Assembly: GCA_012523605.1 (NCBI GenBank)
Contig: JAAYTY010000044.1
Span: 1 to 51,415, forward strand
Origin: Candidatus Fermentibacterota bacterium
GTDB taxonomy: Bacteria; Fermentibacterota; Fermentibacteria; Fermentibacterales; Fermentibacteraceae
Length of the DNA stretch: 51,415 nucleotides
Reading direction: 5' to 3'
The translations under genes were made by a program, and so were the position numbers. Below are positions 34,795 through 45,018 of this stretch, one piece after another (positions within the stretch are counted from its first letter, which is position 1; each line of letters starts with the position of its first letter). The notes beneath the pieces are model-generated. The model was not told the origin of the DNA and ran no database searches. It saw only the letters and a program-made list of their open reading frames with translations.

Positions 34795-35713
34795 GGAGCC
34801 TGATGCCCCCCGGCGCGACGATCGCCCTCCGGATGTCTTCCTCCTCGATGACCGCTCCGTCGCAAGCGATCATGTCGCTCAGCCGCGACCGGACTATCCG
34901 GCAATCCCTGCCTATCGACGCGTGAGGACCCAGCCTGGAGTCGGCTATCACGGCGCCGTCCCCGGTGAAGACAGGGGGGGTCCAGCCTGGGTTTCCCATG
35001 GAGCCGCCCCTCTCGGAGTCGAGCAGGACCCTGTTCGCCTCCAGAACGGAAGCGGCGGTGCCGCAGTCGAACCAGCGCCCGATCCTCGGCAGTTCGAACT
35101 TCTCGCCCGCCTCGATCATGCGCTGTATGGCGTCGGTGAGCTGGAACTCGCCCCTGGTGCGTCGTCCGGAAGAGACGAGCCTCTCCAGGGCTTCGGAGAG
35201 ACCGTCGCCCGACCTGAATCGGTACGCCCCGCAGATCGCGAGGTCACCGACGCGTTCCTCCGGTTTCTCCACGACCGACACGGCGAAGCCGTCGCGCTCG
35301 GTCACGATGCCGTACCTCGAGGGCTCGCACACCCTGGCCACTCCGATCGAGCTGCCCGCCGACAGGGCGACATCCTCCAGGCCGCTGTCGAAGATAGTGT
35401 CCCCGAGAACGACCATGACCGGCTCCGACGACATCAGCGGGGCGGCGCGAAGGACGGCCGACCCCAGCCCGTCGGCGGTCTCCTGCCTCACGGTCGAGCA
35501 GGGCACCGGGCAGCTCCTGTCCGCCCAGTCCTCCAGGAGCTCCGAGAGGTGGCCGACAACCAGACAGATCCTGTCCACTCCCGCGGCCGCCAGGCGCGCG
35601 GCAGTGCGCTCTATGACGGGCACCCCGGCGACGGGGACGAGCGGCTTGGGGATCGCGCAGGTCAGAGGTCTGAGCCTCTCTCCGAGACCCGCGGCCGGGA
35701 TGACCGCGAGCAT
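34787..35713 (-). CDS. Sugar-1-phosphate nucleotidyltransferase
   Basis: MLAVIPAAGLGERLRPLTCAIPKPLVPVAGVPVIER; VVLGDTIF. Confidence 0.9.
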   Translation of the reverse strand: MLAVIPAAGLGERLRPLTCAIPKPLVPVAGVPVIERTAARLAAAGVDRICLVVGHLSELLEDWADRSCPVPCSTVRQETADGLGSAVLRAAPLMSSEPVMVVLGDTIFDSGLEDVALSAGSSIGVARVCEPSRYGIVTERDGFAVSVVEKPEERVGDLAICGAYRFRSGDGLSEALERLVSSGRRTRGEFQLTDAIQRMIEAGEKFELPRIGRWFDCGTAASVLEANRVLLDSERGGSMGNPGWTPPVFTGDGAVIADSRLGPHASIGRDCRIVRSRLSDMIACDGAVIEEEDIRRAIVAPGGIRLHA

Positions 35714-37476
35714 CAGGCCTCCGGATCCGGCCCGCCGTCGAGCAGGATTTCCGGGAAGCGGTCGGCTATGAAGGCCCTCACAGCCTGCCTCACGTGCAGC
35801 CCGGAAGGCATCTCCAGCGCGGCCCGCGCGAGCTTTCTGACGGAATCCGACTCCAGGACGCTGACGAGCTTCTTGATGTCGGGGATGAGCGAGATGGAGA
35901 CGCTCAGCTCGTCAACTCCGAGGCCGACGAGGAGGGGGACGGAAAGCGGCTCAGCCGCCATCTGGCCGCAGACGCCTACCCACTTGCCGGCATCGTGGCA
36001 GCACTTCACCACGTGGTCAATCTGCCTGAGAACGGCGGGATGGTTGGCGTCGAACAATTTCGCCACGAACGGGCTGCCTCTGTCGACCGCCAGAGTGTAC
36101 TGCGTCAGGTCGTTCGTGCCGAGGGAGACGAAATCCACATGGGGCAGGAAGAGATCTATCCCTATGGTCGCGGCAGGCGTCTCCACCATGATTCCGACGG
36201 GTATCCCGGGATCGTAGGGTATCCCGAGAGAGTCGAGTTCGGCGGCTATCTCGGCCATCATCTCCCTCGTCTTCAACACCTGGGAGACCTCGGTCACGAG
36301 AGGTATCAGGAGGCGGGCCCGGCCTTCGACCGACGCCCTCATGATCGCACGGAGCTGTTTCCTGTAGATCCAGGGCCTGTCCAGGCAGACCCGGATCGCC
36401 CTGTAGCCCAGGAAGGGGTTTCTTTCGTGGAACTCGTCGCCCGACAGGAGCTTGTCTCCCCCGATATCCAGCGTCCGGATGATGACCGTGTCGGGGTTGA
36501 TCACTCTGAGGGCGTGAGCGTACTCCCTGTAATCGGTCTCCTCGTCGTCGTCACCGGGAGAGATCAGCCTCAGGAACTCGGTCCGGAAGAGACCGATTCC
36601 CCTGCCGCCGTAGCGCCTCACCTGGTCGGCCTCCTGTGAGAACTCGATGTTCGCGGCCAGCCCGATCTCCAGTCCGTCAGCCGTCCTGGCGGGCTCCGAT
36701 GCGTTGAGCGCTATCGACGCCTGGATCTCCTCGTACTTCTTCCTGAGCTTCGTGTAGTAGAAGATCTGGTCGGCGTCGGGATCGACTATCACTCTTCCGT
36801 GGATGCCGTCCACTATCACGGTCTGTCGCGGCCTGACGGATTCCGCGGCTGTCTTCAGCGCCACTACGGCTGGGATCCCGAGGCTCCTCGCCAGAATCGC
36901 GGTGTGCGAGGTGCTGCCTCCCTCGTCGGTCGCGAAACCGAGGACCTGCTCCCTTCTCAGACCTGCGGTGACGGATGGGTCGAGGTCGCGGGCGACCAGC
37001 ACGACGGGCGATTCGAGTCTGGCCAGCGCTTCGCGCTCGGTTCCGAGGAGCTTGTTGATCAGACGCCTTCCGACATCCCTGATGTCGGCGCTTCTCTCCC
37101 TCGCGTAGGGATCCTTCATCCGGCCGAACCGTTCGATGACCTCGTAGATAACCCGGCTCACAGCGTATTCGGCGCCCTCGAGATCGCTCTCGATCCTCCT
37201 CCTCACGTCGTTCTTCATGGTCGGATCGTCCACAAGGAGGATGTGCGCGTCGATGAGCTGGCGGCCCTCCATCAGATCTTCCATGCCGGAGGCCAGCGCC
37301 AGCAGTTCGCTTCTGGTCTGTTCGACTGCCCTGTCGAACCGTTCGAGCTCCCGCCCGGCCTCTTCCGGTCCGGCGAGAACGCGGCGGCTCACGAGCAGTT
37401 CTTCCACGTCGAGCAGGAAGGCCGGGCCGATCGCGATGCCCGGCGAGGCCGGAGTGCCGTCGAACTGGAGGCCCAT
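35713..37476 (-). CDS. ptsI: Phosphoenolpyruvate-protein phosphotransferase (PTS enzyme I)
   Basis: DEGGSTSHTAILARSLGIPAVVAL active-site His; GIGLFRTEFL; VSLGTNDLTQYTLAVDR. Confidence 0.96.
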   Translation of the reverse strand: MGLQFDGTPASPGIAIGPAFLLDVEELLVSRRVLAGPEEAGRELERFDRAVEQTRSELLALASGMEDLMEGRQLIDAHILLVDDPTMKNDVRRRIESDLEGAEYAVSRVIYEVIERFGRMKDPYARERSADIRDVGRRLINKLLGTEREALARLESPVVLVARDLDPSVTAGLRREQVLGFATDEGGSTSHTAILARSLGIPAVVALKTAAESVRPRQTVIVDGIHGRVIVDPDADQIFYYTKLRKKYEEIQASIALNASEPARTADGLEIGLAANIEFSQEADQVRRYGGRGIGLFRTEFLRLISPGDDDEETDYREYAHALRVINPDTVIIRTLDIGGDKLLSGDEFHERNPFLGYRAIRVCLDRPWIYRKQLRAIMRASVEGRARLLIPLVTEVSQVLKTREMMAEIAAELDSLGIPYDPGIPVGIMVETPAATIGIDLFLPHVDFVSLGTNDLTQYTLAVDRGSPFVAKLFDANHPAVLRQIDHVVKCCHDAGKWVGVCGQMAAEPLSVPLLVGLGVDELSVSISLIPDIKKLVSVLESDSVRKLARAALEMPSGLHVRQAVRAFIADRFPEILLDGGPDPEA

Positions 37477-37479
37477 GGA

Positions 37480-37746
37480 TCAGTCCTCTCCGAAGCCGGA
37501 GGCGATCAGCTCGCAGAGGGCTTCGACAGCCTTTTCTTCGTCGGGGCCGCAGGCGGTCACCGCCAGCTCGGTCCCCTGGCCTGCGGCGAGGGTCATCACC
37601 CCCATGATGCTCTTGCCGTTGATCTCTTCGGACCCGGCCGCGATGGTTATCTCGCTTCGGAAGGAGGATGCCTTCTTGACGATGAGCGCCGCCGGCCTGG
37701 CGTGTATGCCGAGCCGGTTCGGAACGATCACCGTCCTTCTGGTCAC
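37480..37746 (-). CDS. ptsH: Phosphocarrier protein HPr (GTG start)
   Basis: NRLGIHARPAALIVKKA (His15 site) and GKSIMGVMTLAAG (Ser46 site). Confidence 0.95.
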   Translation of the reverse strand: MTRRTVIVPNRLGIHARPAALIVKKASSFRSEITIAAGSEEINGKSIMGVMTLAAGQGTELAVTACGPDEEKAVEALCELIASGFGED

Positions 37747-38741
37747 GATTCTTCCCCCCGCCCGGTCTCCCGCGGACCTCCGCCTGCCTCGGATGCCGCC
37801 TGCATGCGTTCGATCAGCTTCTGCTCGAGAGCCGCCGGAACGTCCACGCCTCTGGTGTTCAGCAGGTGGTTCATAGCGGCCACTTCCAGAAGAAGAGCCA
37901 GGTTCCTGCCGGGCAGCACGGGGAGGGTCACCTGGGGGATCCTTATGCCGAGGTAGGTTGTGGTGGCCTTTTCCAGCCCGGTTCTGTCGAAATCGGGCTT
38001 CTGCGTCCAGTCGACGAGCCGGACCTCGATGTCGACCTGCTGGCGGTCCTTGACCGCCCGGATTCCGAACAGCGCCGCCACGTCCACCATTCCGAGGCCG
38101 CGGATCTCCATGTGATAGCCCATCAGGGCGTCGCCGGTGCCCAGCAGGACCTCCCCGGTCCGCCTGATTCTCACCATGTCGTCGGCCACGAGCCGGTGTC
38201 CCCGCTCGACCAGACCCAGCACCGCCTCGCTCTTTCCTATCGCGCTTCTGCCCGTCACCAGGAGACCGACGCCGAACACGTCCACCAATGTGCCGTGCAC
38301 GGACTTCCTGGGCGCGAACACCTCGGCGAGATAGCCTGTCAGGTCGTGGATCAGCGGAGTGGTGTCCCTCGGTGAGCGGAAGACAGCGCAGTCGGACTTC
38401 CACGCCGCCGCGCAGAGCTCCGCGGGCGGCTCGTAGCCCTTGGTCACGATACAGCAGTAGACAGGGAACTGGAAGATGTTGGCAATGGCGGCTTCACGCG
38501 CCGACGGTTTAAGATAGGACAGATAGGTGATCTCGGTCTCGCCGAAGATCTGTATCCTGTCGTGAAGAAACCTGTGTGTGAAGCCTGTCAGGGCGAGGCC
38601 GGGACGGCTGATGTCGGGGCTGGAGACCAGCCTTCCGAACCCCTCCTCGCCGCATGCCGGCGCAAGCATCAGCCTCTGCCCCATTATCTCGGCGAGCTTG
38701 CGGACCGTCATCTCCCCGGGTTCGGGGAACTTGTCCCTCAA
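37743..38741 (-). CDS. hprK: HPr kinase/phosphorylase
   Basis: VDVFGVGLLVTGRSAIGKSEAVLGLVERGHRLVADD; MEIRGLGMVDV. Confidence 0.95.
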   Translation of the reverse strand: MRDKFPEPGEMTVRKLAEIMGQRLMLAPACGEEGFGRLVSSPDISRPGLALTGFTHRFLHDRIQIFGETEITYLSYLKPSAREAAIANIFQFPVYCCIVTKGYEPPAELCAAAWKSDCAVFRSPRDTTPLIHDLTGYLAEVFAPRKSVHGTLVDVFGVGLLVTGRSAIGKSEAVLGLVERGHRLVADDMVRIRRTGEVLLGTGDALMGYHMEIRGLGMVDVAALFGIRAVKDRQQVDIEVRLVDWTQKPDFDRTGLEKATTTYLGIRIPQVTLPVLPGRNLALLLEVAAMNHLLNTRGVDVPAALEQKLIERMQAASEAGGGPRETGRGEES

Positions 38742-38748
38742 GACCGGC

Positions 38749-39309
38749 CTACCGTTTCCTGCGAGTCAGCTCGACCACCTGGCTCGAGCCGTCCTTCGAC
38801 CTGTACACCGCACTGACCCTGCCCGTCTCGGTGTTCATGAAGGGCATGCACTCGTCGCTGGACATCTCGTACTCCGTCACGGCCTCTTCGGTCGTGAGCC
38901 TCGGGAGGGACCTGTCGTCGGGGATCAGAACCGGGCCTTCGAGGCCGGACGGCTCCGCGGGATCCCAGACGGCCATGCCGGGGCCGGAGGAGACCGAGGA
39001 CTGCTCCTGCTGGCCGCGGTGCGGATGCCCGTGAGCCCGGTCCTTGAACCTCCTGAGCTGCCTCTCGAGATTCGAGACCGTCTCGTCGAATGCGGCATAC
39101 ATGTCATGCGACTGCGCCCTTGCGTCCAGCTTGATCCTGTCGCCCCTGAGCTGTACGTGCGCGTGGTTCACGCCGGAAGTGAACTCGAGGATCACATGGA
39201 CATCGTCTATCCCGTCGTAGAATCGCTCCAGCACTTCCAGCTTCTGTGTGACGTGGGACTTCATCTCCTCGGAGAGGTCGAAATGCCTACCGCTCAGCTC
39301 GATGTTCAT
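38749..39309 (-). CDS. hpf: Ribosome hibernation promoting factor (long form)
   Basis: MNIELSGRHFDLSEEMKSHVTQKLEVLERF; SD AAAGGAGG; C-terminal MPFMNTETGRVSAVYRSKDGSSQVVEL dimerisation-like tail. Confidence 0.94.
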   Translation of the reverse strand: MNIELSGRHFDLSEEMKSHVTQKLEVLERFYDGIDDVHVILEFTSGVNHAHVQLRGDRIKLDARAQSHDMYAAFDETVSNLERQLRRFKDRAHGHPHRGQQEQSSVSSGPGMAVWDPAEPSGLEGPVLIPDDRSLPRLTTEEAVTEYEMSSDECMPFMNTETGRVSAVYRSKDGSSQVVELTRRKR

Positions 39310-39428
39310 GCAGACCTCCTTTTGCCGGGAGCCGGACCCTCGAAACGCCACCGGGAGCGTATCACACAAAGCGCTGCCCCGGCATTGAAGCAGCGGCAGC
39401 GCAAGAAGACGTCACCGTTCGCTCTCAT
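39306..39428 (-). CDS. Putative 40-aa leader peptide/uORF upstream of hpf (MRANGDVFLRCRCFNAGAALCVIRSRWRFEGPAPGKRRSA)
   Basis: ATG 7 nt after a TATGAT -10 box; TGA overlaps hpf ATG (ATGA). The frame is also open further upstream, so it could be chance. Confidence 0.35.
   Translation of the reverse strand: MRANGDVFLRCRCFNAGAALCVIRSRWRFEGPAPGKRRSA
39371..39402 (-). promoter_or_regulatory. Inverted repeat (8-bp GC stem) in the predicted hpf leader
   Basis: GCGCTGCC-N16-GGCAGCGC followed by TTTGTGTG on the minus strand. Confidence 0.45.
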
Positions 39429-39435
39429 CGGGGCG

Positions 39436-39464
39436 ATCATATCCGAGCCCCCGATCTTGGTCAA
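39436..39464 (-). promoter_or_regulatory. Predicted sigma70-type promoter for hpf: TTGACC-N17-TATGAT
   Basis: -35 at 39459-39464, -10 at 39436-39441, spacer 17 nt; long leader to hpf. Confidence 0.6.
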
Positions 39465-39488
39465 CAAGGCCGCCGCAGACTCGTCTCG

Positions 39489-39516
39489 TTGACTGGAATG
39501 GCCCGGCTTGTATGTT
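39489..39516 (+). promoter_or_regulatory. Predicted promoter of gatE-like gene: TTGACT-N16-TATGTT
   Basis: Direct read; followed by SD GGAAGGAG at 39541-39548. Confidence 0.5.
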
Positions 39517-39554
39517 CGGGCGTCGAGTCCCCGAGCTTCCGGAAGGAGAACTTT

Positions 39555-41270
39555 TTGCAGCACGCCCCCGGCGATTACGGCGAGCTTCGCGAGCTCGGCT
39601 TCCGTTGCGGCCTGGAAACCCACCAGCAGCTCGCGACGCCCAGGAAGCTGTTCTGCAGATGCCCTGCGCGCATCAGGAACGATCCGCCGGACTCCGAGCT
39701 CCTCCGTCACATGCGGCCGACGCTGAGCGAGTTCGGCGAGTACGACGGAACCGCCCTCATGGAGTTCAAGACCCGGAAGCAGGTCCACTACCTGCTCTAC
39801 AACGACAGCGTCTGTACCTACGAGATGGACGACACCCCCCCCTTCAAGGCCGACCCCGAGGCGGTGGAGACAGCCATCGCCATCGCGATGATGTTCAACA
39901 TGTCACTGGTGGACGAGATTCACATCACGCGGAAGCAGTATCTCGACGGCAGCATACCGACCGGCTTCCAACGCACCGCCATCATCGGCGTGAACGGGAG
40001 CATACCCTTCCTCGGCAGGACTCTCGACTTCTTCCAGTTGAGCCTGGAGGAGGACGCCTGCAGGGAGGTGGACGACGAAGGCCACCACATCTGGTTCAGG
40101 ACCGACAGGCTTTCGATCCCTCTTGTGGAATCGGTCACGGCGCCGGTGCTCTTCACGCCGGCGGAGGCTGCGGCCGGTGCCCGCGCCGTGGCCGAGGTGA
40201 TGCGGTCCACGCGCAGGATAAGAAGGGGCATCGGATCCGTCCGCCAGGATGTGAACGTATCCATCAGGGGCGGGACGAGGATCGAGATCAAGGGCGTTCC
40301 CCGCATAGGCCTCATCGAGGACCTATGCAGGACGGAAGGCTATCGCCAGAAGGCCCTGCTCGATCTCAGGAGCGCCCTGGCCTCCTCGGGGCTCGATCCG
40401 GACTCCTTCGGGGCTGTTCCTCTGGAGCTTCGGGAGGATCAGGCTCGCAGGTGCGCCGAACCATGGGGCGGGCCGCGCGACGAGGAGATCGTCGCGGTCC
40501 AGATCCTCCCGGGGTTCCGGAAATACCTTGGCTGGCCCACACAGCCCGACAGGACCTTTCTCGACGAGATCGAAGGCCGCGTGCGGGTCATCGCCTGCCT
40601 CGTCCACAAACCCACTGTTCTGGAGGCTCCGGAATGGCTCCGCTCCGAGCTCGGCATCCCCGGATCGGATGCGGCGCTCGTCTTCTCGGCGGTCCCCGAG
40701 GACTCGGCTACGGCATCCCAGGAGATCGTCGCCAGGGTGAGGGAGGCCTTCATCGGAGTTCCTTCCGAGACCAGACAGGCCCAGCCCGGCGGCAGGACCA
40801 CCTTCGAGAGGATACTGCCCGGTCCCGACAGGATGTATCCGGACACGGACCTCCCACCGGAGGCCGTCGATGCCGCTCTGGTAGACAGGATCAGAGCCTC
40901 CCTGCCACCCAGGCCCTGGGAGAGGCGTGAAGCCTATGCCGCCCTCGGGGTGCCGGAGGAACTCGTCACCAGGCTGATCAACTGGGATTCCGCCGACCTC
41001 TTCGACAGGGTACGCCCTTCCGTGTCCTATTCCGCGGCCAGCCTTGCCTGGCTTCTCACCGACAGGGCGAGAGGATCGAGGAGGGCGGGACGCGACTGGC
41101 GAACCCTCGGAGAGGCATCTATGGCGGCCATCCTCGCCGAGTGCAGCTCGAGGGGGCTGACGGTCAGGGGAGCAGCCAGGGTTCTCGATGCCATGTCCGG
41201 TCCGGGGGGAGCGGACCTGGACGAGGCCGTGGCCGCGGCGGGCGCCCCGGCCCGCGTTTCGGAACGCTGA
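39555..41270 (+). CDS. gatE: Archaeal-type Glu-tRNA(Gln) amidotransferase subunit E-like protein (TTG start preferred)
   Basis: DYGELRELGFRCGLETHQQLATPRKLFCRCPARIR; LRHMRPTLSEFGEYDGTALMEF; VDEIHITRKQYLDGSIPTGFQRTAIIGVNGSI; a GAD-like middle region. Confidence 0.85.
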   Translation: MQHAPGDYGELRELGFRCGLETHQQLATPRKLFCRCPARIRNDPPDSELLRHMRPTLSEFGEYDGTALMEFKTRKQVHYLLYNDSVCTYEMDDTPPFKADPEAVETAIAIAMMFNMSLVDEIHITRKQYLDGSIPTGFQRTAIIGVNGSIPFLGRTLDFFQLSLEEDACREVDDEGHHIWFRTDRLSIPLVESVTAPVLFTPAEAAAGARAVAEVMRSTRRIRRGIGSVRQDVNVSIRGGTRIEIKGVPRIGLIEDLCRTEGYRQKALLDLRSALASSGLDPDSFGAVPLELREDQARRCAEPWGGPRDEEIVAVQILPGFRKYLGWPTQPDRTFLDEIEGRVRVIACLVHKPTVLEAPEWLRSELGIPGSDAALVFSAVPEDSATASQEIVARVREAFIGVPSETRQAQPGGRTTFERILPGPDRMYPDTDLPPEAVDAALVDRIRASLPPRPWERREAYAALGVPEELVTRLINWDSADLFDRVRPSVSYSAASLAWLLTDRARGSRRAGRDWRTLGEASMAAILAECSSRGLTVRGAARVLDAMSGPGGADLDEAVAAAGAPARVSER

Positions 41271-41273
41271 ATC

Positions 41274-41432
41274 TCAGCTTCCGCGCCCCCCCTGCAGGCC
41301 CAGCTCCCTGATGTGATTCAATAGAGTCCTGTAGCTCACGCCGAGGATCCTAGCCGCGACGGTGCGGTTTCCGCCGCTGCGCTCCAGAGCCTCCAGTATC
41401 CTCCGGCGCCTGACCTCCCTCGAAGCCTCCAT
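41274..41432 (-). CDS. 52-aa Fis-type helix-turn-helix protein / detached C-terminus of the NtrC-like regulator
   Basis: My own translation: MEASREVRRRRILEALERSGGNRTVAARILGVSYRTLLNHIRELGLQGGRGS; in frame with the upstream regulator after a TAA; absent from the ORF track. Confidence 0.75.
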   Translation of the reverse strand: MEASREVRRRRILEALERSGGNRTVAARILGVSYRTLLNHIRELGLQGGRGS

Positions 41433-41438
41433 CGCCGC

Positions 41439-42563
41439 TTATGGCATCGAGCTGTCGCGGCCTGCCGGCGGGATCTCCAGCAGGTCGGGTGTGATCGCCC
41501 GTCCGGCGGACAGGGTCGCTGCGCGCAGGAGTATGCTCCTCAGCTCGCGGACGTTCCCCGGCCAGTGGTAGGACTCGAGGGCGGCCGATGCGGCCTCGTC
41601 CAGCAGCGAGGGGTTGCAGCCCGCCTCCTTCAGGAAATGCCGCGACAGGAGAGCCACGTCTCCGTGCCTCTCACGGAGCGGGGGAAGGATCACGGGGAAC
41701 TCGCAGAGCCTGTAGTAGAGGTCCTGCCTGAACCGGCCAGCGGAGGCTTCCGAGCCGAGATCCCTGTTGCTCGCCGCGACTATCCTGACATCCACTCTTA
41801 TCGTCTCCGAGCCGCCCACTCTGGTGAACTCCCTCTCCTGCAGAACCCGCAGGAGCTTCCCCTGCAGAGCCGGCGCGAGGTCGCCCACCTCGTCCAGGAA
41901 CACGGTTCCGCCGTCCGCGAGCTCGAATCTGCCGGACCGCCGGCAGTCTGCGCCGGTGTAGGCGCCCTTCTCCGCTCCGAACAGCTCGCTCTCCATGAGT
42001 TCGGACGGTATGGCGGCGCAGTTGACGGGGATGAAGGGACCATCGCGCCTGTCGCTCGCATCGTGCACGGCCCGTGCAAGCAGCTCCTTGCCGGTGCCGC
42101 TCTCCCCGAGGATCAGCACCGTAAGCCGGGACGCCGCTCCTTTGAGCGCCCGCTCCACCGCGGCCCTGAACGGAGGGCTCTCTCCGATCATTTCCGAGGG
42201 TCTGCAGGGTGAAGCCTCCTCGAGAAGCGCGATAAGCGAATCTATCTGGAATGGCTTGGTCACGAAGTCACGGGCGCCTGCCTTCATGGCCCTTACCGCG
42301 AGGTCGATGGTGCCGAATGCGGTCATGAGAATCACCGGCATGGAAGGACTCGAAGCCTTCGCGGCCGAGAGCACGGCAAGACCGTCGCACCCCGGGAGGC
42401 AGACGTCCGTCAGCACAGCGTCGTACCTTCCTTCTCCCAGGAGCTTCACGGCGGACGGTCCGTCGGCGGCGGCGACCACCTCCCATCCGGCCTCTGAAAG
42501 CGCTGTCACGAGCATGCTGCGCATGCCCCTGCGGTCCTCCACCAGGAGCACGACCCTCTTCAC
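41439..42563 (-). CDS. NtrC-family sigma54-dependent response regulator (receiver + AAA+), lacking its own HTH
   Basis: Receiver Asp in [47 protein letters not shown]; ends SSMP-TAA. Confidence 0.93.
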
Positions 42564-44191
42564 AGATCTTCCTTCGCGCAGAGCGGAAGCCTGATCTCGA
42601 AGACGGCGCCGCCGCCCTCCCGGCGTGAGGCACGCAGATCTCCGTTCATCATCCCTGCCAGGCGTCTTGTGATCGTAAGGCCCAGGCCCATGTGGCCCTC
42701 CCCCTGCTTCGTACTATAGAACGGGCGCATGACTGCGTCCCCGTCCTCGGGTAGCCCGGGCCCCCTGTCCATGACTGAGACGCTGAAGCTCCCCCTCGAA
42801 CACGCCACGACCACTTCGGGCACACCTCCGGGATCCGCCTCCTTTGCGTTCCTGACCAGGTTGAGCACGCACCTCTGGAGGAGCACGGGATCCGCCCTCA
42901 GGCAGGCGTCCGGACACGAGCCGTCCGCCAGCTCGAAGCGTGCGCCGGTCTCCGAGCAAACGGCGGCCACGGAATCCGCGAGAGAGGAGCAGGTGACCTC
43001 GTCCAGCCTGGCCTCGGGGGTTCCGGCGAAGGACTTGAACGAGCCGATCATCCTCTGCGCCGAGACTATCTCCTCACGGGCCTCGGCCAGGATGGATTCC
43101 GTCCTCGGATCTGAGTGGCCCCTTGCGAGGAGGTCCATGAAGCCCTGGAGAGCGCAGAGGGTGTTGCCCATCTCGTGAGCCACGCCGGCCGACAGCGTTC
43201 CGAGCCCGGCCATCGCGGCCTCCTCGGCGAGCCTGCGCTCGAGCGTCCTCAGCCTCGTCACGTCGTTCACCAGAACCGCTCTGGAGCCTCCTGGCGAAGC
43301 GGCCACGGAAACGCTGTAGGCCCTTCTCTCGGGTCCGGACTCGATCTCCAGCTCGATCTCACCGGGTTCCGATCCGATCCCGGAAAGAAACCTGCCGATG
43401 GCCGCCCCCGCCTTGGTCCTCCCGCCGGGGAAACCGCTCCCCAGGTCGCCCGAATCCAGACGGAAGAGCTCGGCCGCGCTCGGATTGAACAGGGTCAGCT
43501 TCCCCTCGGCATCGAGAGCCATCAGGGCGGCGCCGATGCTCGAAACGACAGCGGCGGAGCACTCCTCCGCCCTGTCGGCTCTCCGCTCGGCCAACCTCCG
43601 GAGTCTGTCCAGCTCACGGTCGCGTTCCGACAGCTTCTGGACAAGCTCGGCGAAGGATGCGCGGGCGGCCGCCGCGGTTCTCGCGCCTCCGGGAACCTGC
43701 CGCCCGGCCTCTTCTAGGATCTCCTCGAGAGGAGCCGTGAGGTTGCGCGAAATGTATCCCGGCGTGAGTATCGAGAGGATCAGCAGTCCGGCGGTGATCA
43801 CGGCGAGGGAGAATGTGAGGATCGTACGGAAGGGCTGCGAAGGCGGAAGCCTCACGCCTGCGTACCGTCCCCCCCCGAGAGGTCTGACCTCCCAGTCCCC
43901 TCCCAGCTCCTCCACCCTCGCCGAATCGAGGATGAGAGCCTCCTCGAGAGTCCCGGAGAGAACGAGTGGAGCTGCGGCCTGCCTGAGCGCCTCTTCGGAA
44001 GGATTCCCCCGCACCGAGGCCGTGATCATCTCCGCGGCCATTACGGCGCGAAGCCTCCTCTCGTCCTCGAAGTCCCGGGCGAGAAGAAGGTTTATCACGA
44101 GGGCGACGAGCGAGGCGGCTACGCCGGCGGCCAGGGAAGAACCTATCAGCAGTTCGACGGCGAGAGTGAACCTGCCCCTGCCCGGCTTCAC
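42560..44191 (-). CDS. Membrane sensor histidine kinase (GTG start)
   Basis: Two TM segments, PAS-like region, H-box [12 protein letters not shown]-box [19 protein letters not shown]. Confidence 0.9.
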
Positions 44192-45018
44192 CTTCCCACC
44201 TTCCCCCGGCTCCTTCTCCAGGCGAGATAGTCGAGCCAGCCCGTCACGAACTCGGTCCTGCCCCGTGACAGCGACAGCAGCAGATGCAACGGCATCCATG
44301 CAGCGCTGCGGAACCGCATGAACGGCGTGGAGCAGTGCCTTTCCATGAATATGAAGCGGTTCCTCTCGCGAAGCCTTCTCGATGCGGGACCGCCGCCCAT
44401 GGTGGCCGCGTGCTCGTGGTCCCAGATGGAGAGAGGGGCCCTGGTCATGGACAGGCCCGCACATGCGGCACGGACACCGAGGTCGGCGTCCTCCCAGTAG
44501 ATCGGGGCGAATTCGACTGCAAGCCCGCCCAGCGTCTCCCAGTGGGATCTCCTGAAGAGGCTGCACGCACCCGACGGGTAGGGTACGCCATGCTCTTCCG
44601 GACCGGTCACGGCCAGGCCGCGCCTGAAGCCCGTCCTCATACCGCCTTCGTCCTGCATTCCCGGCCTCGTGATTACCGGCACCGCCGCATATACCGAGTC
44701 GGGCGCGGATTCGAGCGCCTGCACGAGTTCCGCCACGGCTCCCTTCCGGGGCGAGACGTCATTGTTGAGGAGAAGAAGGATGTCGCCTCCGGCCAGGGAC
44801 ATCCCGAGGTTCACGGAGTGGCAGAACCCCGGGGGGCCCTCCCTTCTAGCGAACCTCACACCGGGGAACTCCGCCGGACCGGCTTCGCAGGTGCCGTCCG
44901 ATGATGCGTCGTCAACGACGATCACCTCCCACCCCGGTGCCTCGCCGGTCAGGCGGGGCAGATGCCTCCTGAGCAGCTCCAGCCCGTTCCTGGAAGGGAT
45001 GACGACGCTTCCCCTCAC
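44188..45018 (-). CDS. GT2 family glycosyltransferase (GTG start)
   Basis: VVIPSRNGLELLRRHL, VIVVDDASSDGT, LLLLNNDVSP, YWEDADLGVRA. Confidence 0.9.
   Translation of the reverse strand: MRGSVVIPSRNGLELLRRHLPRLTGEAPGWEVIVVDDASSDGTCEAGPAEFPGVRFARREGPPGFCHSVNLGMSLAGGDILLLLNNDVSPRKGAVAELVQALESAPDSVYAAVPVITRPGMQDEGGMRTGFRRGLAVTGPEEHGVPYPSGACSLFRRSHWETLGGLAVEFAPIYWEDADLGVRAACAGLSMTRAPLSIWDHEHAATMGGGPASRRLRERNRFIFMERHCSTPFMRFRSAAWMPLHLLLSLSRGRTEFVTGWLDYLAWRRSRGKVGR

Follow-up and report, generated by a model that had tools for sequence, protein, structure and literature searches.

The closest described relatives of the gene treated here belong to the GatDE system. Reviews describe GatDE as confined to archaea, where it acts on Glu-tRNAGln and has co-evolved with the archaeal tRNAGln, which kept GlnRS from entering the archaea (PMC9499178, PMC8007984); the archaeal enzyme reads the A1-U72 pair of tRNAGln (PMC9499178). 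Bacterial GatDE was not reported in the open-access literature that we searched. A second point of comparison is the GatCAB that serves asparagine in Deinococcus, Thermus and Bdellovibrio, where the amidotransferase is kept beside both AsnRS and GlnRS (PMC4206432). It is stated at review level that a non-discriminating AspRS never occurs without an amidotransferase (PMC6523644).

We analysed a stretch of 51,415 nucleotides, hereafter the window, from a Candidatus Fermentibacterota assembly of 2.39 Mb in 234 contigs (95% complete). A sequence-only reading had singled out in it a homologue of GatE rather than GatB, and had taken GatDE to be archaeal, as the reviews do. The window gene is a true GatE, and our analysis suggests that GatDE here makes asparagine rather than glutamine on tRNA. 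The system resembles archaeal GatDE (PDB 2d6f, 1zq1) in its GatE profile, fold, catalytic residues and GatD partner. It differs in about 20 fixed substitutions, many of them in catalytic motifs, in the company of GlnRS, a discriminating-type GluRS and tRNAGln with U1-A72, in having gatE and gatD unlinked, and, for the window copy, in lacking the YqeY-like end. With GatCAB of Deinococcus, Thermus and Bdellovibrio it shares the proposed logic of retaining an amidotransferase, alongside AsnRS and GlnRS, to form asparagine on tRNA; the differences are that the enzyme here is GatDE, that GatA and GatB were not found, and that there is one AspRS, of archaeal type.

The longest frame at the locus encodes 593 aa from a TTG at 39489 to the stop at 41270; the TTG at 39555, with GGAGAA just upstream, is the better start. 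The gene and the features of its product are as follows.

39555..41270, + strand: gatE, 571 aa from TTG 39555, YqeY-like C-terminal end missing (TIGR00134 over cut-off, profile positions 5-552 of 622; fold matches 1zq1 and 2d6f)
39606..40883, + strand: GatB/GatE catalytic domain PF02934, into which a diverged GAD-like insert is set
39813..39833, + strand: motif CTYEMDD, residues 87-93; CLVEADE in archaeal GatE
39939..39959, + strand: motif YLDGSIP, residues 129-135; VIDGSNT in archaeal GatE, YFYPDLP in GatB
40047..40064, + strand: motif EEDACR, residues 165-170; EEDAAR in archaeal GatE
40833..40850, + strand: motif MYPDTD, residues 427-432; MY.ETD in archaeal GatE

Against the GatE profile TIGR00134 the product scores 364.6 bits (cut-off 319.55), while a second GatE profile, NF003107, gives 426.6 bits, below its cut-off of 456. 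The GatB models of NCBIfam reach at most 122.7 bits, with cut-offs of at least 314.8. A phmmer search of the PDB returned archaeal GatE at E values of 6e-88 and 3e-79, and GatB at 3e-19 or weaker. The three top Foldseek matches of the AlphaFold model (pLDDT 87, pTM 0.86) are archaeal GatE chains (1zq1_C, 2d6f_D and 2d6f_C; E values 1e-39 to 3e-42). The profile, PDB and fold searches thus rule out a misread GatB, and the distinction drawn from the sequence alone holds. The GAD-like insert region that had been described along with it is less clear, as Pfam detects none in the window protein and a weak one in some relatives.

The invariant catalytic residues are kept in the GatE of the window lineage, as in archaeal GatE; what is missing is the YqeY-like end. 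In the lineages f1, g7 and g8 the match to TIGR00134 stops near position 550 of 622, which is how the missing end is recognised, and in genus g4 it runs to full length. Yeast GatB is inactive once its YqeY domain is removed (PMC4027206), and the window GatE may therefore need another anchor. One might go further and regard the tail-truncated GatE of f1, g7 and g8 as a remnant or a moonlighting protein that has lost tRNA amidation, with full-length GatE active elsewhere. The missing end, a long stem branch and the separation of gatE from gatD all point that way. We consider this very improbable, given the retention of the invariant catalytic residues, a frame intact in 17 genomes, and a GatD retained in most.

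The gene is the single GatB/GatE homologue of its genome. That gatD is absent from the window is correct; it lies at two contig ends of the same genome, C230:4-330(-) and C52:4-873(+), which make up one reading frame, and the larger piece (C52) scores 374 bits against TIGR02153 (cut-off 324). The gene is broken only by the contig end, and an orphan GatE, one of the readings first entertained, is thereby ruled out. The genome search that had been proposed for gatCAB and glnS as well as gatD found GlnRS (752 bits, cut-off 425.8), its gene side by side with that of GluRS, and did not find GatA or GatB; here as in the other genomes, absence rests on family searches and draft assemblies. AsnRS is present, which rules out a need for GatDE for want of that enzyme. 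The family searches gave no match to GatA or AsnA in this genome, and of AsnB they gave a C-terminal AsnB-like fragment only.

The neighbours of gatE in the window, recognised by synteny, are these.

35713..37476, - strand: ptsI-like PTS enzyme I
37743..38741, - strand: hprK-like HPr kinase
38749..39369, - strand: hpf-like ribosome hibernation factor, bordering on one side a slot that holds gatE or asnA or is empty (tblastn synteny with related genomes)
41439..42563, - strand: NtrC-like sigma-54 response regulator, the other border of the slot
42560..44566, - strand: sensor histidine kinase adjoining the regulator

GatD and GatE together were found in most of the 42 genomes of the phylum and GlnRS in nearly all, and family searches of the phylum did not find GatA or GatB. 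Apart from the four genomes with AsnA described below, the genomes without GatE (G031, G035 and G040) have a completeness of 61-77%, and the hpf locus is either missing from them or truncated at the end of a contig. Beside hpf-hprK-ptsI, gatE stands alone in those loci of f1, g7 and g8 that were examined; the NtrC-like regulator lies on its other side in f1 and g7 and was not seen in g8. Where the two genes are unlinked, gatD lies behind rpoN and in the same orientation in all three loci examined (G000, the window genome, G001 and G013; L217, L218 and L220). With gatE by hpf-hprK-ptsI and gatD by rpoN, both lie in a nitrogen-regulation neighbourhood. In genus g4 the two are adjacent, in the same slot. 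The earlier description of the gene as half of a split GatDE is accordingly apt only in the sense that the two genes, neighbours in a sister genus, are not linked in this genome.

The distribution extends well beyond this phylum. By record title, the best 80 of at least 594 relatives place GatE in 16 bacterial phyla, including the cultured Labilibaculum and Perlabentimonas; two of these 80 loci carry the label Thermoplasmatota archaea. In 62 of the same 80 loci gatD lies within 6 kb; their flanks held no AspRS, AsnRS, GlnRS or GluRS gene, and asnA once. In the GatE tree, 113 rows fall on one side and M. thermautotrophicus, P. abyssi and G047, a bacterial genome, on the other; the tree was built by a fast method and comes with a warning about long branches. 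In this phylogeny, a check that the earlier reading had advised, bacterial GatE forms its own branch apart from archaeal GatE. Together with the presence of GatDE across most of this phylum and in many others, the tree rules out a single recent transfer from archaea. The f1/g7/g8 and g4 lineages stand apart in the tree and the single f3 protein (G006) groups with Acidobacteriota and with G044, a genome of another phylum, which means that the GatE genes of the phylum are not one clade. No GatE was found on viral contigs. One bacterial genome stands out from the rest in that its GatE (G047:C207; L022) carries the archaeal signature and falls among the archaeal proteins.

The bacterial and archaeal sides of GatE show consistent differences at about 20 positions, many of them inside conserved catalytic motifs. 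In the loop KQYLDGSIP, the Y and the P are common to bacterial GatE and GatB; archaeal GatE carries V in place of the first and T or V in place of the second. These fixed changes may alter the amino-acid pocket.

The GluRS Arg that matches Arg358 of the T. thermophilus enzyme, which we take to be the mark of discrimination, is kept in all 13 phylum samples and in G044. The window genome has a GluRS with the discriminating-type Arg, as judged from its sequence, and both tRNAGln genes found there have U1-A72. With GlnRS present, GluRS bearing the Arg358 equivalent, tRNAGln of bacterial type in the window genome, and GatA and GatB not found, the usual Glu-tRNAGln job looks unnecessary in the phylum. 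It is still what the annotation and homology would assign, through the PF02934 and TIGR00134 matches and a catalytic core conserved with archaeal GatE: GatDE would amidate Glu-tRNAGln as in archaea, as a second route beside GlnRS. Such a role is unlikely in our view, since it sits poorly with GlnRS, with the discriminating Arg of GluRS and with a tRNAGln that has U1-A72 and not A1-U72, and since AsnA, found where GatDE is lost, cannot supply glutamine. A separate case is G048 (L331, L332), which has GatDE together with GatCAB, no GlnRS over the cut-off, and two GluRS genes, one of them without the discriminating Arg.

Among the phylum genomes AsnA was found in four only (G008, G027, G030 and G038), all of them without GatD and GatE, and in none of the GatDE-positive ones. 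The slot between the NtrC-like regulator and hpf (window 37743-42563; L096, L209, L223) contains gatE, gatE-gatD, asnA or nothing, depending on the member. G030 has asnA between the regulator and hpf, and G027 has it next to hpf-hprK-ptsI where a contig starts, in both cases at the gatE-gatD place of relatives. In G008 regulator and hpf adjoin, leaving the slot empty, and asnA is elsewhere; in G038 asnA is near glnA and the slot region was not recovered. AsnA is an unrelated enzyme that makes free asparagine, and what it would have in common with GatDE, apart from the slot in G027 and G030, is the proposed product, asparagine. At least nine genomes have GatDE with no AsnA and no AsnB over the cut-off. 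AsnB-like genes are common in the phylum; they accompany AsnA in G008, G027 and G030, so that their presence does not erase the pattern. In one Zixiibacteriota locus, asnA, gatD and gatE stand in a row on one strand (L281:3346-7872), a cluster that ties the functions of AsnA and GatDE yet breaks their exclusivity there.

The trees of AspRS and AsnRS imply three changes, two of them on well supported branches, too few for significance by independent pairs. With two to three independent events only, with asnA at other loci in G008 and G038, and with PTS, HPF and rpoN genes as the neighbours of gatE and gatD, the exclusion could be fortuitous or due to a hot spot of recombination, and the role of GatDE could be a different one, such as nitrogen control, as its position might hint. 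We think this quite improbable: AsnA was found in none of the phylum's GatDE-positive genomes, and two genomes have asnA in the gatE-gatD slot itself.

The proposed substrate, Asp-tRNA(Asn), directs attention to AspRS. The AspRS of the window genome scores 373 bits against TIGR00458 aspS_nondisc (cut-off 368.4) and its nearest PDB chain is T. thermophilus AspRS2; its marker residues are mixed. The AspRS of the phylum (L084:612-1994) is of archaeal type, with T. thermophilus AspRS2 as the nearest PDB structure, and searches of the order turned up no AspRS of bacterial type. The strongest point against the Asp-tRNA(Asn) claim is that AspRS is alike in AsnA and GatDE genomes: no residue marks a change of specificity, and none convincingly separates the two sets; at the position where the known non-discriminating enzyme has His and the discriminating one Trp, there is a Gln. 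Nor can the 1-72 pair of tRNAAsn serve as a common mark, as it differs between families, being G1-C72 in the f2 samples and U1-A72 in f1, f3 and G008 (L141-L163). The tRNAAsn of the window genome was not recovered, and that of G027 is a pattern match only, not called by ARAGORN. In G044, GatDE is the only amidotransferase found, with no AsnA and no full AsnB; the N-terminal domain of its AspRS is closest to the non-discriminating AspRS of P. aeruginosa and shares its HGG motif.

The route that we favour would run as follows. The window gene would encode that subunit of a bacterial GatDE which binds tRNA and acts as kinase/transamidase, and GatD, encoded elsewhere behind rpoN, would free ammonia. 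GatE would then activate and amidate an amino-acid side chain held on tRNA, most likely that of Asp-tRNA(Asn) made by the archaeal-type AspRS of the phylum, so that GatDE would supply asparagine on tRNA though AsnRS and GlnRS are both present. We infer the substrate, the specificity of AspRS and the activity of the tail-truncated GatE, and consider it somewhat probable that bacterial GatDE amidates Asp-tRNA(Asn), which would give a route to asparagine on tRNA comparable to the one that GatCAB provides in Deinococcus. Of what the sequence-only reading had proposed, a new role is the most supported part, through the presence of GlnRS, the discriminating-type GluRS and the swap of GatDE and AsnA in relatives. 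The wider proposal, of a second, bacterial GatDE subfamily spread over many phyla, with a changed active site, acting as an Asp-tRNA(Asn) amidotransferase and exchanged with AsnA, we put forward tentatively, at a little under even chances. A wide bacterial GatDE clade beside GlnRS is directly relevant to how the decoding of glutamine and asparagine codons arose, and would call for reannotation of many genomes in which the enzyme is now labelled Glu-tRNA(Gln) amidotransferase.
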